Positions 6,784 through 50,691 of a stretch of 64,000 nt of DNA are shown here, in pieces. How positions within the stretch are numbered: the first letter of the stretch is position 1; each line of letters starts with the position of its first letter. The notes beneath the pieces were generated by a model. The model had not been told where the DNA came from. It saw nothing but the letters and a program-made list of their open reading frames with translations, and made no database searches. The stretch is from Daejeonella sp. JGW-45 (GTDB lineage: Bacteria; Bacteroidota; Bacteroidia; Sphingobacteriales; Sphingobacteriaceae), in the NCBI RefSeq assembly GCF_029360805.1, contig NZ_JARKNC010000006.1, positions 126,199-190,198 of the forward strand, in the 5' to 3' direction. The translations under genes and the position numbers were made by a program.

Positions 6784-8871
6784 ATGCCATTGTTATTTCA
6801 GCTGCAGTTTACATCCCTTACTTTTTTCTGGCTGTTAGCTTGCCTTGCCCTGGGGATGGGCTATGCTTTCTTGCTTTATAGCTCATCTGCGCATCTGAAA
6901 AAACCTCTTCGGAACCTATTATTTGCGCTCAGGACTCTTGCTGTAACTTTTATTTCCTTTCTTCTTTTCGCCCCCCTCGTCCGGAATATTAAAACAACTG
7001 CTGAGAAGCCTCTCATCATTATTGCGCAGGATAATTCGGCATCGATCCTTGTTTCCAAAACCAAAGGTTTTAATGAAAGATCGTACGCTGAAGAATTGAA
7101 GGAACTCAGAAAAGCCCTGGCAGACGACTATGATGTCCGCTCTTTCAGCTTTGGATCGGAGGTTAAAAACGGGCTTGATCTCATGTTTAACGCACCGCTC
7201 ACGGATATCGCTTCAATTTTCAAACTTATAGACGATCAGTTTTCCAATCGTAATATTGGAGCTTTAATAATTGGAAGTGACGGGATCTACAACCGTGGCC
7301 CCAACCCTCAGTATGAAGCAAAAAATCTGAAGTCCCCGGTCTATACTATCGCATTAGGAGACACCATTGCAAAAAGAGACCTTCTTATTTCCAACGTAAA
7401 TTATAATAATATCACATACCTGGATAATCAGTTCCAGGTGGAGGTTAGTGTCGAAGCTTATCAGGCGCAAGGCAGTTCGAGCGTACTTACAGTCTCCGAT
7501 AAGTCAGGTATAGTGTTTTCGCGACCGGTATCGATTAGTTCGAACGAATTCCGTTTGCTTGTTCCAATAACATTGCCGGCTAACAATAAGGGGATCCAGC
7601 AATATACAATCCGCCTGTCGCCGATTTCAAATGAGCTTTCGGTCAAGAATAATACTCAAACTATTTTCGTGGAGGTGATCGATGGCAGGCAGAAAGTCTT
7701 GCTCCTTGCTAACTCACCGCACCCCGACCTGTCGGCCTTAAAGCAATCTATAGAGGTTAATAAAAATTACTCCACGAAAATAGCGTTTGCCGCTGAGGTA
7801 ACCAGCTCAGATATTGAGGATGCCGGTCTGGTGATCCTGCACCAGCTTCCTTCCCTTAGTAACAGCGCTCCGGAGCTGCTAAAAGCAATGCCTTCGAAAC
7901 CACTATGGTTTGTGCTCGGTGCTCAAAGTAATGTCAATGCCTTTTCTTCATTCCAATCCATTCTGGGAATCACCTCATCGGGTAATACCCAGGAAGCTAC
8001 AGCCAGTTTTGAACCTGACTTTTATGCATTTACATTAACCGATGCGAGCAAGCAGCGTATACGTAATCTGGCGCCGCTAATAAGTCCTTTCGGGAATTAT
8101 GGTTTGAAAGGCCCTGCCAGTGTTATGATTAGTCAGCAGGTCGGGAAACTTGTTACTAAGATGCCCTTGCTTGTTTTTGGAGAAGACGCACAGCGTAAGG
8201 TCGCAGTAATGGCTGGTGAAGGGATCTGGAGATGGAGGCTCGAAGATTTCCAGGAGAGCGGGAACCATGAGGCTGTGGATGAGTTAGTAGGGAAAACCGT
8301 CCAGTACCTTTCAACACGGGAAGATAAGAGGAAGTTCCGGGTTTATCCGGCAAAAAATGCCTTTGATGAAAATGAGCATGTCATACTTAACGCCGAACTT
8401 TATAATGACGCATTTGAGCTTGTAAATACGCCGGATGTAAATATCTCCCTTAGAAGTAAGGCCGGGAAAAGCTATCCCTTTGTTTTTTCAAGAACAAGTA
8501 ATGCATACAGCCTCGATGCCGGGATATTGCCCGCTGGCGAGTACAGTTATACTGCGCGAACAGAATATGGCAAGAGCAGGCATTCGGCCGCCGGTAAATT
8601 CGTCATCACACAGCAGCAGGCGGAATTCAAACAAACAAGGGCGAACCACCAATTGCTTTATGCAATGGCACAGCAAAGCGGGGGTAAGATGATATTTCCC
8701 TCACAGATCGGAGATCTGGCGCGGCATATTAAGGAAAATGAGAATATAAAGACTGTGTCTTATGAAGACCGTAAATATGAAGAACTCATTAATGTTAAGT
8801 TATTGTTTTTTGTCATCCTCGCATTGCTTAGTTTAGAATGGTTCTCAAGGAAAAGAAATGGGGAAGTCTAA
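6784..8871 (+). CDS. Large VWA-like membrane protein
   Basis: A 695-residue protein with two N-terminal transmembrane helices (about residues 10-30 and 41-62), a VWA-like segment with the MIDAS-type signature IAQDNSASIL (near residues 78-88), a long extracytoplasmic beta-rich region, and a C-terminal transmembrane helix (about 672-690, KLLFFVILALLSLEWF) with a basic tail. This architecture matches a conserved Bacteroidota family annotated as VWA domain-containing and related to the Bat aerotolerance membrane proteins; its biochemical role is not established. It begins 55 bp after the SIMPL gene. Confidence 0.75.
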   Translation: MPLLFQLQFTSLTFFWLLACLALGMGYAFLLYSSSAHLKKPLRNLLFALRTLAVTFISFLLFAPLVRNIKTTAEKPLIIIAQDNSASILVSKTKGFNERSYAEELKELRKALADDYDVRSFSFGSEVKNGLDLMFNAPLTDIASIFKLIDDQFSNRNIGALIIGSDGIYNRGPNPQYEAKNLKSPVYTIALGDTIAKRDLLISNVNYNNITYLDNQFQVEVSVEAYQAQGSSSVLTVSDKSGIVFSRPVSISSNEFRLLVPITLPANNKGIQQYTIRLSPISNELSVKNNTQTIFVEVIDGRQKVLLLANSPHPDLSALKQSIEVNKNYSTKIAFAAEVTSSDIEDAGLVILHQLPSLSNSAPELLKAMPSKPLWFVLGAQSNVNAFSSFQSILGITSSGNTQEATASFEPDFYAFTLTDASKQRIRNLAPLISPFGNYGLKGPASVMISQQVGKLVTKMPLLVFGEDAQRKVAVMAGEGIWRWRLEDFQESGNHEAVDELVGKTVQYLSTREDKRKFRVYPAKNAFDENEHVILNAELYNDAFELVNTPDVNISLRSKAGKSYPFVFSRTSNAYSLDAGILPAGEYSYTARTEYGKSRHSAAGKFVITQQQAEFKQTRANHQLLYAMAQQSGGKMIFPSQIGDLARHIKENENIKTVSYEDRKYEELINVKLLFFVILALLSLEWFSRKRNGEV

Positions 8872-12655: not shown

Positions 12656-12854
12656 TAGCCCGGTCTGCAAATGTCAATTCACCGTTTGCTAGAAATTAAC
12701 CCACGCTAGCTGGTTTTTCCATTTGCTCTAATTTTTTTCCACTGAAATCAGGTTTCTTAGACTATCGCGAAAATGCTGATCAGCGAAGGCAGAAGCCGAA
12801 AAGCCTGAAAAGAGTAGGGATATATAAATGTTTAACACTTAAAAATTAAAAGAA
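12656..12854 (+). other. Untranslated stretch before the peptide gene
   Basis: About 200 bp between the HTH gene and the Gly-Gly peptide. I see no gene in it and no clear TTG/TAnnTTTG pair. The A/T-rich end (TTAAAAATTAAAAGAA before the ATG) is a typical Bacteroidota ribosome-entry context. The spacing suggests that the peptide has its own regulated promoter. Confidence 0.4.
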
Positions 12855-46710: not shown

Positions 46711-49281
46711 TTATAAGGAGTAACGAAGGGTCAGCCCAAATGTTCTTGGGTCTCCAAGTACGCCTGCGTAATGGCCTGCATTTCCGCCTGCAGGCAATAA
46801 TTGCTCAAAATAATCTTTGTTGAACAGGTTACGGCCCCAAACGTATGCCGAAAAGCCTGTCGTAGCTTTATAGCCGATGCGGCCGTTAATAAGGGTATAG
46901 GCTTCAATATTCAAGTATTTAGAAGGCGAAGGGCTTGACGAAAAGTCGGAACGGTAATAAGCATCCAGTGCACTGAAGAACTTAGCTTCCTTCTTGAAAA
47001 ACTTAGCCGGCGTAGCGAATTCTCCTCCCGCTGATCCTGCCCACTTGGAGATGCCTGGAAGCTGTCCGCCGGAAATGTCTTTGAATGCTACCTGTACGCC
47101 GTTAACTGTTAAGCCTGTTTCTTCCAGCGGAAGCGGTGCATTGGTAAAGCGGTCATATTTCGCGTCCGTGTAAGCTGCAGCTCCGTAGAACGTGAAATTC
47201 TGGTTTGCTCTCAGGTTTGCATCCAGTTCAAACCCTTTTACGCTTACCTTTTCTGCGTTTGCAATATAGCCTCGGTTCACGCCCAGTTCAGGCGACTGCA
47301 CATTGGTCTGGTAATCTTTAATATCAGACTGGTGAAGGGTAAAGTTCAGCGTAAGGTTGTCAGCAGGTGAAGATTTTATTCCAAGTTCATAGTGCTTTGT
47401 GTCCTCGGGTTTAATAACCGCCAGGTTAGTGGCCGCCCCGCCCCCTGGTGCTGATGGAAGACCAGCTACGTTAACACCTACGGGCTTGAAGCTGGTAGAG
47501 TATGTAGCAAAAGCATTTAATCGTCTGCTTGGTCTGTAAGCGGCGGTGAACGAATACGTGAAGTTTTTCTCATCGGCATCGGCTACATACGACTGACTGC
47601 TGTATACACCGTTTTTTAGCGCAATTAATGCGGGGTCTGTAGTTTGCAGGCCACCCCGGGCGATCCGGCTATAGTTTACATCCTTTTCATCATAATTGAA
47701 GCGAACGCCCGGCAATATGTGGAAGTTCTTAATGATCTCCCAGTCGATGCTGGCAAATGCAGCTGCGCTTTTCGATTTGATGGAAGCGGTAGTGTATATA
47801 CCATATCCTTCAAACAGGCCGGGTGTTCTCCAAAGTAGGCTGGTGGAGCTCTGAGAGAAGCGCCATTGATCGGAACCGGATTCTTCTGTTCCGTTGATCT
47901 TTACTTCCTGATCGATGAAAAATACACCGACGACACCGCTTAGTTTTTCTGAAAGCTGACCTGCATAACGTAGCTCCTGAGACCAGTTCCGGTGTTCTGC
48001 CGGGTTTTGAGATTTGGCCAGAGCCTGTAGTCCGGTGAAATCCCTGTCATTTGACGGAATCCAGTTCCAGTAGCGCCAGGCTGTGGTAGAGGTCAGGGTG
48101 CCTGGTCCTAATTTTGTTTCGGCGTTTAATGAAACACCACCCAGTTCGTTACCTGAATTCCATGGTGTATCATGATCAATTTTACGATCAAAAGCATTGA
48201 GGCTAGGCAGCGAATATCCGAGCTCGGCGGTAATTGCGTTGAACTGGCGATAAGCAGGCCTTAGGGTTTGTACTACTCCCGCAACTACCTGGGCATACCC
48301 ATCAGGTTCCTGGTCAGAGGCATCCAGCGCAAGGGTTATGAAGGTGTTGTCTGTGGGCTTGTACAGCAGCTGGCCGCGAAAGCCGAGGTTGTTTATATCG
48401 TTGGTTGCTTTACCAGTTCGGATGTTTTCTATCACACCGTCCCGTTGGGTGCCAGAAAAGGAAACACGCACAGCAAATTTCTTGCTTAAAGGTCCGGTGA
48501 CAGAGGTTTTCGCCTGGATGTATCCATAGTTACCGAAGCTGCTTTCAAAATTATATTCAGGGGTGAAACTAGCTTTGCGGGTTACGATATTGAAAGCACC
48601 AGCCGTTGTATTCTTCCCGAAGAGGGTACCCTGTGGACCGCGCAGTACCTCAATGCGGTCGATATCAATAAAGTCAAGAGTAGCAGCTGCAGGCCTTGCA
48701 TAGTAAACGCCGTCTACATAATAACCTACTCCCGGATCAAGACCATCATTTGTCAGCCCGAATGGTGAGCCTATACCACGAATATTAACACCGGTGTTTC
48801 TGGGATTTGACGTATACATCTGCACGGATGGGATGAGCTCTTTAACGCGGCCCACATTGAATGCTCCTGATTCCTGGATCTGTGCACCGCCAACAACAGA
48901 AATCGGAATTGGAACATCTTGCAATGCCTCTGATCGCCGCCTGGAGGTAACGACGATTTCTTCAAGCAGAGCGTCTTCTACAAGTGTAAGCTGTACTGGC
49001 GTATTGAAACCGAGTATCTGGAAATCCTGAGGTCTAAACCCTATAAAGGTTGCCCTGATGTAAAAAGGGGGCTGTTGATTCACAGTTAGTTTGAATTGCC
49101 CGAGAGAATCAGCTTTGGTTGAGTTGTTGGTCCCTCTTACTGCAATTGTGGCGTCGGCCAGAGGCTGTCCCTGGCTGTCTTTTACCGACCCGGAAACTAC
49201 TTGCTGAGCAAGCAAAGAACCAGAATAGAGAAGAAATACGTTTAGCAGCAGAAATTTTACTGCATACGGGAAATGTTTCAT
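46711..49281 (-). CDS. TonB-dependent receptor behind a polycysteine leader ORF
   Basis: An 856-residue outer-membrane receptor. Signal peptide (1-25), CarboxypepD-like domain (about 27-112, VVSGSVKDSQGQPLADATIAV), plug (about 120-230, SEALQDVPIPISVVGGAQIQ in outline, then RIEVLRGPQGTLFGKNTTAGAFNIVTR) and a 22-strand barrel ending LTLRYSL. It belongs to the iron/siderophore/other small-molecule class rather than SusC. Upstream on its own strand lie a consensus promoter and a 37-codon ORF ending Cys-Cys-Cys-Arg, and a methylenetetrahydrofolate-reductase-like gene is divergent, which hints at sulfur-compound uptake (inference). Confidence 0.9.
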   Translation of the reverse strand: MKHFPYAVKFLLLNVFLLYSGSLLAQQVVSGSVKDSQGQPLADATIAVRGTNNSTKADSLGQFKLTVNQQPPFYIRATFIGFRPQDFQILGFNTPVQLTLVEDALLEEIVVTSRRRSEALQDVPIPISVVGGAQIQESGAFNVGRVKELIPSVQMYTSNPRNTGVNIRGIGSPFGLTNDGLDPGVGYYVDGVYYARPAAATLDFIDIDRIEVLRGPQGTLFGKNTTAGAFNIVTRKASFTPEYNFESSFGNYGYIQAKTSVTGPLSKKFAVRVSFSGTQRDGVIENIRTGKATNDINNLGFRGQLLYKPTDNTFITLALDASDQEPDGYAQVVAGVVQTLRPAYRQFNAITAELGYSLPSLNAFDRKIDHDTPWNSGNELGGVSLNAETKLGPGTLTSTTAWRYWNWIPSNDRDFTGLQALAKSQNPAEHRNWSQELRYAGQLSEKLSGVVGVFFIDQEVKINGTEESGSDQWRFSQSSTSLLWRTPGLFEGYGIYTTASIKSKSAAAFASIDWEIIKNFHILPGVRFNYDEKDVNYSRIARGGLQTTDPALIALKNGVYSSQSYVADADEKNFTYSFTAAYRPSRRLNAFATYSTSFKPVGVNVAGLPSAPGGGAATNLAVIKPEDTKHYELGIKSSPADNLTLNFTLHQSDIKDYQTNVQSPELGVNRGYIANAEKVSVKGFELDANLRANQNFTFYGAAAYTDAKYDRFTNAPLPLEETGLTVNGVQVAFKDISGGQLPGISKWAGSAGGEFATPAKFFKKEAKFFSALDAYYRSDFSSSPSPSKYLNIEAYTLINGRIGYKATTGFSAYVWGRNLFNKDYFEQLLPAGGNAGHYAGVLGDPRTFGLTLRYSL

Positions 49282-49344
49282 TTTTATGTGTTATTAAAGA
49301 TTTATTGGAAATAATAAAAATTGATAGTTTGAATTCAATGGTGA

Positions 49345-49458
49345 TCAGCGGCAACAACAGGGTTGCAAAAAGCGGCTTAAATTCAGGGGAAGAGGTGAAT
49401 AGCTAACTTGTTTTGACATAATCCTGCCTTTAGTAGTGGGACGTTCTGGTTGTTTCAT
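49345..49458 (-). CDS. Short leader ORF ending CCCR, candidate cysteine attenuator
   Basis: A 37-codon ORF on the minus strand, ending with SRFLQPCCCR and a TGA, in the leader of the TonB receptor 63 bases upstream of its start. The ATG at 49458 lies 4 bases after a TATACTTG promoter box, so its mRNA would be leaderless. An internal ATG at 49419 gives a 24-residue version. It contains three consecutive Cys codons just before the stop, the feature of polycysteine upstream ORFs described in mycobacteria, where ribosome stalling at low cysteine activates downstream genes. That it works the same way here is inference. Confidence 0.55.
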   Translation of the reverse strand: MKQPERPTTKGRIMSKQVSYSPLPLNLSRFLQPCCCR

Positions 49459-49462
49459 GCCG

Positions 49463-49492
49463 CAAGTATAGGTAAATATCCTATTATATCAA
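49463..49492 (-). promoter_or_regulatory. Promoter of the leader ORF/TonB receptor transcript
   Basis: Minus strand: TTG (plus 49490-49492), 19-base spacer, TATACTTG (plus 49463-49470). It fits TTG-N19-TAnnTTTG except for one base of the -7 box. The next ATG starts 4 bases downstream. Confidence 0.7.
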
Positions 49493-49661
49493 TAAAGTCT
49501 ATGGAATTAGTAGTCATTTATTTTAAAAAATGCTTTGATCAATGGGCAGACAACGTTTTTATGAATTATTTTTATCGTTCATATCGGCTTTTGTTAAGAG
49601 TTATAAACCAGAGGCATTCCGTTCCATCCCCGAATAGCGTTCTTGAACTCAGCTCCGGTTG

Positions 49662-49719: not shown

Positions 49720-50691
49720 ATGTTTGTACAAAAAATTAAATCCGGCGCGTCAGGGATTTTACTTTATGGTATTACACCTCCAAAGTCGGAGACAAGTCCG
49801 GAGAAAGTGGCCGAAATTGCTGAAAAGACAATGGGTCGTTTAGCTACAATTGATATCGATGCCCTTATCGTATACGATGTGCAGGATGAGTCGGCGAGGA
49901 CATCGGAGGAAAGACCATTCCCTTTTCTGAAGGCTCTTGATCCGTTTTATTTCGCAAGTAAATACCTCAATGAATTGGATGTTCCCAAGATAATCTATCG
50001 TCCTGCCGGTAAATTTTCGACAGAAGAACTTTCGGAATGGCTGGAGAATGTTCATAGTTATAATTTTTATCCGGTGTTTGTGGGGGTTCCGGCTCCTGAT
50101 TTTCCCGTAAAAACGAGTCTCCCCGAGGCTTATAAAATCTGGAGTAAGCACGAAAGTACATCCGTGATAGGTGCTGTCACTATTCCTGAGAGACATGCAG
50201 TTCTTAAAGATGAAGATGTACGTATCCTGGATAAAGTAGGTTGCGGGGTATCTTATTTTATTTCCCAATGTGTCTTTAATGTTGAATATGCGAAGAAGGT
50301 TATCGAAGATCTTGATTGCGCATGTACGAAAAATAATCGGAAAGTCCCAACAATTATATTTACCCTGACAGCTTGTGGTTCGGCAAAAACGCTGCATTTC
50401 ATGGAATGGCTTGGAATACATGTACCCGAAGAGCTAAAGGAAGAACTAAGGACATCTGATAATATCCTGGAGAAGTCGGTGAATGTTTGCCTGAGCATAG
50501 CTTCCGAGTTGATTGAATTCTGCACCGCGCGTTCAATTCCCTTTGGATTTAATATTGAAAGCGTCGCGATAAGGAAGGAAGAGATCGAAGCCTCAATAAA
50601 TATGGTGGATGAAATAGCTCAAATGCTTGCAAATAAGGGCTTGCGTAAATTGCGTGAGAAAGAGGCGGAAGTTTTACCAAAAGGAGTTTAA
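49720..50691 (+). CDS. Methylenetetrahydrofolate-reductase-like protein
   Basis: A 323-residue TIM-barrel protein related to MetF-type methylenetetrahydrofolate reductases, which make 5-methyl-THF for methionine synthesis. The core includes VYDVQDESARTSEERPFPF, the strand-loop VFVGVPAPDFP, and FTLTACGSAKTLHFMEWLG, the latter typical of a divergent MTHFR-like branch. It is not the canonical MetF, whose FAD-binding motifs I cannot find exactly. Start chosen at ATG 49720 (MFVQKIKSG), behind a -7 box; a longer frame starts at 49693. It is divergent from the TonB receptor with the polycysteine leader. Confidence 0.75.
   Translation: MFVQKIKSGASGILLYGITPPKSETSPEKVAEIAEKTMGRLATIDIDALIVYDVQDESARTSEERPFPFLKALDPFYFASKYLNELDVPKIIYRPAGKFSTEELSEWLENVHSYNFYPVFVGVPAPDFPVKTSLPEAYKIWSKHESTSVIGAVTIPERHAVLKDEDVRILDKVGCGVSYFISQCVFNVEYAKKVIEDLDCACTKNNRKVPTIIFTLTACGSAKTLHFMEWLGIHVPEELKEELRTSDNILEKSVNVCLSIASELIEFCTARSIPFGFNIESVAIRKEEIEASINMVDEIAQMLANKGLRKLREKEAEVLPKGV

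Follow-up and report, generated by a model that had tools for sequence, protein, structure and literature searches.

A cysteine-rich upstream ORF recurs before TonB-dependent receptors of Bacteroidota and is probably a leader peptide

Here, we describe a short upstream open reading frame (uORF) that precedes the gene of a TonB-dependent receptor in Daejeonella sp. JGW-45, whose genome comprises 4.1 Mb in ten contigs. Both lie in a stretch of 64,000 nt of contig NZ_JARKNC010000006.1, hereafter called the window. The C-terminal end of the encoded peptide is Cys-Cys-Cys-Arg-stop. We observe the ORF itself, the recurrence and the positioning of its Cys codons upstream of related receptors, and similar leaders that this genome carries on sulfur operons. 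It is probable that the uORF acts as a cysteine-codon leader peptide through which the level of charged tRNA-Cys governs receptor expression. With ample cysteine, translation would pass the Cys codons and the receptor would be kept low. A shortage of Cys-tRNA would make the ribosome stall there, some 70-80 nt ahead of the receptor start, and more receptor would be made. The receptor would be a sulfur-scavenging importer, co-controlled with sulfate assimilation.

The receptor gene (46711..49281, minus strand, ATG at 49281) encodes a TonB-dependent receptor of 856 amino acids that has a CarboxypepD_reg-like domain. The uORF is located upstream on the same strand at 49345..49458, with its ATG at 49458 and its stop codon at 49347-49345; its 37 codons read MKQPERPTTKGRIMSKQVSYSPLPLNLSRFLQPCCCR followed by the stop, and an alternative start is available at M14 (49419). 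The three Cys codons, TGT TGT TGC (49351..49359, minus), are the proposed sensor codons and lie at -78 to -69 nt from the receptor ATG. A nearly G-free intercistronic stretch of 63 nt (49282..49344, minus) separates uORF and receptor. A promoter-like sequence of the Bacteroidota -33/-7 type, TTG-N19-TATACTTG, is found at 49463..49492 (minus); its TTG (49492-49490) is taken by us to be the -33 element, and 4 bases lie between TATACTTG (49470-49463) and the uORF ATG. An initial annotation, made from the letters of the window, had described this layout from the promoter to the 63 nt gap, and every coordinate of it holds. The uORF peptide matches none of the NCBIfam models, and the Rfam models at gathering score give no riboswitch in the leader. 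The Rfam matches of the window, a tRNA and a DUF805b RNA (RF02914, 51.2 bits, 12786-12820), are both located elsewhere.

The Cys codons had been expected to recur in relatives of the receptor. The sample consists of the best 80 of 140 confirmed relatives from one scan of named genomes; locus L103, which ends at a contig edge, was left out, so that 79 relatives and the window make up 80 upstream regions. Within 350 nt upstream, we searched for uORFs of 10-70 codons starting with ATG and carrying at least 3 Cys within 6 residues. Such uORFs are present in 50 of the 80 regions, a count that, like the others given here, overstates the number of events, as the relatives are not independent and many belong to Pedobacter. 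Dinucleotide shuffles (60 rounds) yield a mean of 0.65 per 80 regions, with a maximum of 3. Among 470 other genes of these loci, many of which are situated inside operons, 6 carry such a uORF. Thresholds of at least 2 and at least 4 Cys give 61 and 24 of the 80 regions, versus shuffle means of 8.7 and 0 per 80 and versus 51 and 1 of the other genes. Because of this enrichment at the strict rule, the Cys-rich uORF before the receptor is confirmed as real and beyond chance. Outside the Sphingobacteriaceae, with the genera placed into families as we assume them to be, the strict rule finds three loci only, one in Niabella (L124) and two in Flavobacteriaceae (L125, L126), with L098 and L100 set aside.

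The remainder of the peptide is variable and differs between groups. At the third position of the Cys codons, where variation was to be checked, TGT (141 codons) and TGC (39 codons) alternate in 16 patterns over the 50 loci. The Cys codons recur in relatives, and the check on their conservation that the annotation had proposed as a refutation does not refute the leader, though 30 of the 80 regions miss the strict rule. Used as a protein query against 150 genomes, the leader peptide was unproductive because it is too variable, the best match apart from the window itself having E = 0.0135. The plain pattern of a Cys run plus stop was rejected as a leader detector: it gives 6 short ORFs in 65 loci, and only that of the window precedes a long ORF.

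In 33 of the 50 Cys-leader loci, here called proximal, a distance of 54-84 nt separates the end of the last Cys codon from the receptor ATG. The uORF stop of the same loci ranges from -15 to -81 and falls between -15 and -50 in 22 of them, and the Cys run of receptor leaders may fall inside the uORF, not always at its end. As the distance from Cys codons to receptor start is narrow while the stops vary, the constrained parameter seems to be where the ribosome stalls, and not where the peptide ends. The remaining 17 loci have distal leaders, with Cys codons ending at -140 to -276. A distal group in Pedobacter (L138, L143, L146, L158, L160 and others) shows a conserved stretch resembling GGATG..AAAACATCC..GGCTTTGCTTTGC between leader and receptor.

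In the genome of the window, Cys-rich leaders are also found ahead of a sulfite reductase/sulfate operon, there with an intrinsic terminator, and ahead of metY, where a SAM riboswitch comes first. The counts of metY and sulfite reductase leaders that follow were made without a shuffle control. By metY we mean a gene with a computed match to family PF01053, which we read as O-acetylhomoserine sulfhydrylase. Its set comprises 16 close homologues: 15 come from the genus of the window, the last from a different family of the class. All 16 loci possess a leader with 3 or more Cys within 12 residues (14 under a stricter first filter), which carries Met codons in most cases and ends 93-127 nt upstream. 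A SAM riboswitch (SAM-I) is located directly before the leader in all seven metY loci tested (L206, L208, L214, L215, L216, L220, L221); L126 and L176 gave no match in the same Rfam test. On metY, riboswitch and Cys(-Met) leader appear as two sulfur sensors in series.

In the same genome (L236), the leader MKIKRTYMFHVLTTGCCYKKCLI opens the sulfate operon, and an Rrf2 regulator gene lies immediately upstream. The operon comprises a nitrite/sulfite reductase, a tetrapyrrole methylase, a siroheme synthase, a Cys/Met PLP enzyme, two PAPS-reductase-family proteins and a GTPase that we read as a putative CysN. Cys leader and terminator before the sulfite reductase operon lie at L236:8705-8776 (minus) and, in a second locus, at L237:9435-9509 (plus). 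Among 20 fetched operon stretches, the first rule, which requires 3 or more Cys among the final 12 residues, finds a leader in five (L236, L237, L248, L249, L255). A looser rule adds three sulfite reductase leaders (L238, L240, L241); five of the 11 sulfite reductase regions have no Cys leader even then. A hairpin with T run is found by script in seven of the 11 (L236, L237, L239, L240, L241, L249, L252). That of L252 lies about 100 nt upstream of a gene without Cys leader, while that of L238, missed by the script owing to mismatches, was seen by eye and folds. A terminator stands between leader ORF and sulfite reductase in seven of the 11 regions (L236-L241, L249), and since it is present, transcription attenuation is likely for these leaders. 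Locus L249 carries two leader-terminator modules in tandem before sulfite reductase (7302-7364 and 7445-7522, minus). As an antiterminator, a TTGAAGA-like element was considered, which lies at or directly behind the uORF stop (in L236 and L237 at the stop) and could pair with the 5' arm of the terminator. Equilibrium folding of 7 loci retains the terminator in both ribosome states, and hence we claim only the terminator for the sulfite reductase leaders.

Two further leaders were observed. The one before a cysH-type gene (L248 and L176, the same place) has seven Cys, and that of L255, ending in ...YMCCCCCMCMC, precedes a gene which we read as a putative homoserine dehydrogenase. A query with this enzyme gave 27 loci with 18 recognised starts, and a Cys leader within 350 nt was seen in L255 only; in the genus of the window, the homoserine dehydrogenase gene is located about 1 kb downstream of metY.

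The uORF had also been called apparently leaderless. This is possible for the window, given its 4-nt gap, but does not extend to the receptor leaders in general. A box resembling TAnnTTTG, the -7 consensus (PMC9723704), is found with at most 1 mismatch within 120 nt in 49 of the 50 Cys-leader receptors, and in 43 of these 49 it lies 18-45 nt from the ATG. The gap of 4 nt is shared by the window and L127 only. In an alignment of close relatives, their shared start codon falls on ACT, codon 9 of the window uORF, which makes the start in the window ambiguous: it may be codon 1 or M14. Few mRNAs of the phylum are leaderless, with 5.5% in F. psychrophilum (PMC9723704), and 5' untranslated regions below 10 nt account for about 3.7% in B. 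thetaiotaomicron (PMC7366714). Before sulfite reductase, a start codon lies exactly 4 nt past TATATTTG in six of seven genomes of the window's genus (none in L243) and in one genome of another genus of the family (L246), i.e., in 7 of 8 family regions. Two of these seven 4-nt-spaced ORFs are without a Cys pair (L239, L246). Because the spacing recurs there, leaderless leaders are credible in the genus of the window.

Several results weigh against the leader reading. The 30 regions missing the strict rule comprise 11 with 2 Cys in 6 residues, several of them plausible (e.g., MIMCMC in Flavobacterium), and 19 with at most one. Genes for cysD/N/H, SUMT or an Rrf2 regulator were not recognised in the fetched flanks of 67 out of 81 receptor loci, the window included. 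A terminator-like hairpin occurs in 15 of the 80 receptor regions: one is located between leader and gene (L158), four overlap the leader (L098, L101, L105, L109), and the other ten either precede the leader or belong to loci that have no Cys leader. Aligning 15 Pedobacter regions (L172 and 14 of the 33 proximal loci) gave 0 conserved pairs, and aligning 13 distal loci out of 17 gave 31 weakly supported ones. The predicted access of the receptor start is 0.652 in the free state versus 0.678 with a stalled ribosome (Wilcoxon p 0.02), rising in 10 and falling in 4 of 33 leaders and unchanged in the window. The structure, access and terminator analyses thus do not demonstrate a downstream switch.

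Two models of the last step were rejected. Relief of a sequestered start by the stalled ribosome would have to rest on an access change that is too small to carry the mechanism and zero in the window. Pairing of the Cys tract with intercistronic RNA fails as a general mechanism, with mean z values of -0.8 (33 proximal leaders), 0.2 (17 distal) and 0.0 (13 metY); p<=0.05 is reached in 7 of the 33 proximal leaders, four of which are L139-L141 and L153. The last step may act through initiation, Rho or mRNA stability; we prefer an influence on initiation, or else termination by Rho within the short, unstructured gap, to a switch made of hairpins. Translation of the uORF, the stall, the sign of the response and the substrate of the receptor are inferred. 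The annotation had likewise proposed import of a sulfur compound, switched on at low cysteine, and its interpretation finds partial support.

Attenuation by Rho would be a version of this last step that is compatible with cysteine sensing. Rho would load on the G-poor gap once the ribosome leaves the uORF, and a ribosome stalled at the Cys codons would shield it. The composition fits: in the 60 nt before receptors, G amounts to 7.8% versus 12.6% in 242 control genes, and C minus G to 0.125 versus 0.038. No intrinsic terminator (hairpin plus U run) was found between leader and receptor of the window. There is also precedent, since the CruR uORF acts by way of Rho and a region with C>G on its TonB-dependent transporter (PMC9426467), and a further one in PMC1262725. 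However, the 22 proximal uORFs that stop 15-50 nt from the receptor would leave little free RNA at plentiful cysteine and more on a stall, the opposite of what shielding by the ribosome requires. The G depletion moreover peaks in the last 30 nt (receptors 3.8%, all controls 10.2%, 12 large-protein controls 7.8%), where it may mark a strong start site, and it is noticeable in the large-protein controls as well. We regard the Rho model as doubtful.

Rather unlikely, too, is that a stalled ribosome stabilises the receptor mRNA or alters initiation without an RNA switch, or that an operator for an Rrf2-like repressor is dominant and the uORF a means of tuning. The narrow stall-to-start distance without conserved structure would suit the former. 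With regard to the latter, a palindromic operator-like site, TGACTACTAATTCCATAGACT, is located upstream of the promoter at 49496..49516 (minus), with two mismatches to AGTCTA-N9-TAGACT. A similar palindrome occurs at the sulfite reductase promoter of the same genome (two mismatches) and at that of L237. Rrf2 genes lie beside the sulfite reductase of this genome and, as the next gene upstream, beside the receptor in three Flavobacterium loci; the palindrome might be an operator of the Rrf2/CymR type. The match is moderate, however: with spacings of 7-10 allowed, the palindrome is found at up to 2 mismatches in 40 of 80 receptor regions versus 36 of 235 control genes, and at up to 1 mismatch in 18 of 80 versus 9 of 235.

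A metal sensor of the CruR/DUF2946 kind, in which receptor expression would follow the binding of copper or some other metal by Cys residues of the nascent peptide, shares the arrangement of a Cys-bearing uORF before a TonB-dependent transporter. The peptides found here have mostly 20-45 residues and are variable outside the Cys run, while CruR has 145 residues, putative export, and CXXC and RAPP motifs. Sensing of charged tRNA fits better than metal sensing because Cys leaders also stand on sulfite reductase and on metY, where Met codons are mostly added; together with the lack of an NCBIfam match for the window peptide, this makes a metal sensor very improbable. A functionless chance ORF, for which one might cite the N-terminal part of the window uORF, not common to relatives, and the 19 regions with at most one Cys, is scarcely conceivable in view of the enrichment over shuffles and other genes and the recurrence on sulfur operons.

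The surroundings of the receptor add the following. A divergent gene (49720..50691, plus) had been described as MTHFR-like. The resemblance stands but is weak, with 22.4 bits against Pfam PF02219 (cut-off 24) and 29.2 bits against TIGR00676 (cut-off 293.7), and at the cut-off used no such neighbour was found in the fetched flanks of the other 80 loci; the gene is probably not part of the system. At least one of cysD/N/H, SUMT or an Rrf2 regulator is present in the fetched flanks of 14 of the 81 receptor loci; the window has none of these within 5 kb. A cluster of TauE-type permeases (c7, one member tested for its family) has members in 8 loci, and a sulfatase adjoins the receptor in L117. Solved structures of receptor relatives, among them receptors for siderophores and colicins and some that cover the plug region only, do not indicate a substrate. 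Cys-run uORFs were further observed ahead of a SusC-like receptor (L116:10132-10215, identified by eye), an AhpC/TSA-family protein (L117:9270-9374) and a RimK-like ATP-grasp protein (L122:9722-9799).

Taking up cysteine sensing again, a wider reading can be put forward tentatively, and we are slightly more doubtful than confident of it. The Bacteroidota may possess a sulfur regulon run by Cys(-Met) leaders, which would be of the terminator type on sulfite reductase and sulfate assimilation, situated behind SAM-I on metY, and free of terminator and structure on the receptor, with the place of the stall as the main conserved parameter. The receptor would import an organic sulfur compound, and the mechanism would be a new one based on ribosome position, in a phylum not relying on Shine-Dalgarno sequences. 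From a biological point of view, a device common to many relatives and several sulfur genes suggests an importer made when cysteine runs short. It suggests a nutrient class, sulfur, for an outer-membrane receptor family lacking a known substrate, and provides a codon-level signature for locating other sulfur-scavenging genes in Bacteroidota. The receptor leader may also serve as a clean test case for a stalled ribosome that raises expression of the gene behind it with neither terminator nor sequestered start.

Leader peptides have been noted in Bacteroidota transcriptomes (PMC9723704, PMC7366714), and PMC9723704 reports candidates before amino-acid biosynthesis operons; a cysteine case may be among its supplement lists. 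Attenuation is suspected there too, but the available parts of both papers name no cysteine leader and no receptor as target. The uORF CruR (DUF2946) of Bordetella bfrG, a putatively exported, copper-sensing protein (PMC9426467, also PMC9973294), is likewise located upstream of a TonB-dependent transporter. The window peptide differs by its 37 residues and by the absence of an RAPP motif. The uORFC-8-2 motif before cysS in Rhodobacterales combines tandem Cys codons in a uORF with two stems and a terminator that has a U run (PMC8632094). It shares the tandem Cys codons with our leader, and its target is linked to the supply of Cys-tRNA. Unlike this motif, the window leader showed neither stems nor a terminator; the sulfite reductase leaders of the genus, which have a terminator, are closer to it.

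This kind of device is known from mycobacteria, and a literature search over titles and abstract openings, with few subscription journals, found no Cys leader in Bacteroidota and none ahead of a receptor linked to sulfur. Polycysteine leader ORFs of mycobacterial cys genes are reportedly the subject of Canestrari et al. 2020, a work known to us by its title from reference lists. For cys operons of mycobacteria, leaders with a Cys run and no terminator hairpin were predicted earlier in PMC1262725, and Cys-run leaders in Mycobacterium and other Actinobacteria are mentioned in PMC9094748 and PMC13236596. The likeness to the mycobacterial leaders comprises the short ORF, the Cys codons near its stop, the lack of a terminator hairpin and, in the window, the start 4 nt after the box. 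Sulfur genes are the targets there; here, similar leaders precede sulfite reductase, metY and cysH-type genes, and the receptor would be such a target if it imports a sulfur compound. The leaders of this study differ in that they belong to another phylum, that an outer-membrane receptor is their target, that most of them are not leaderless by the position of the box, and that the Cys run is sometimes internal.

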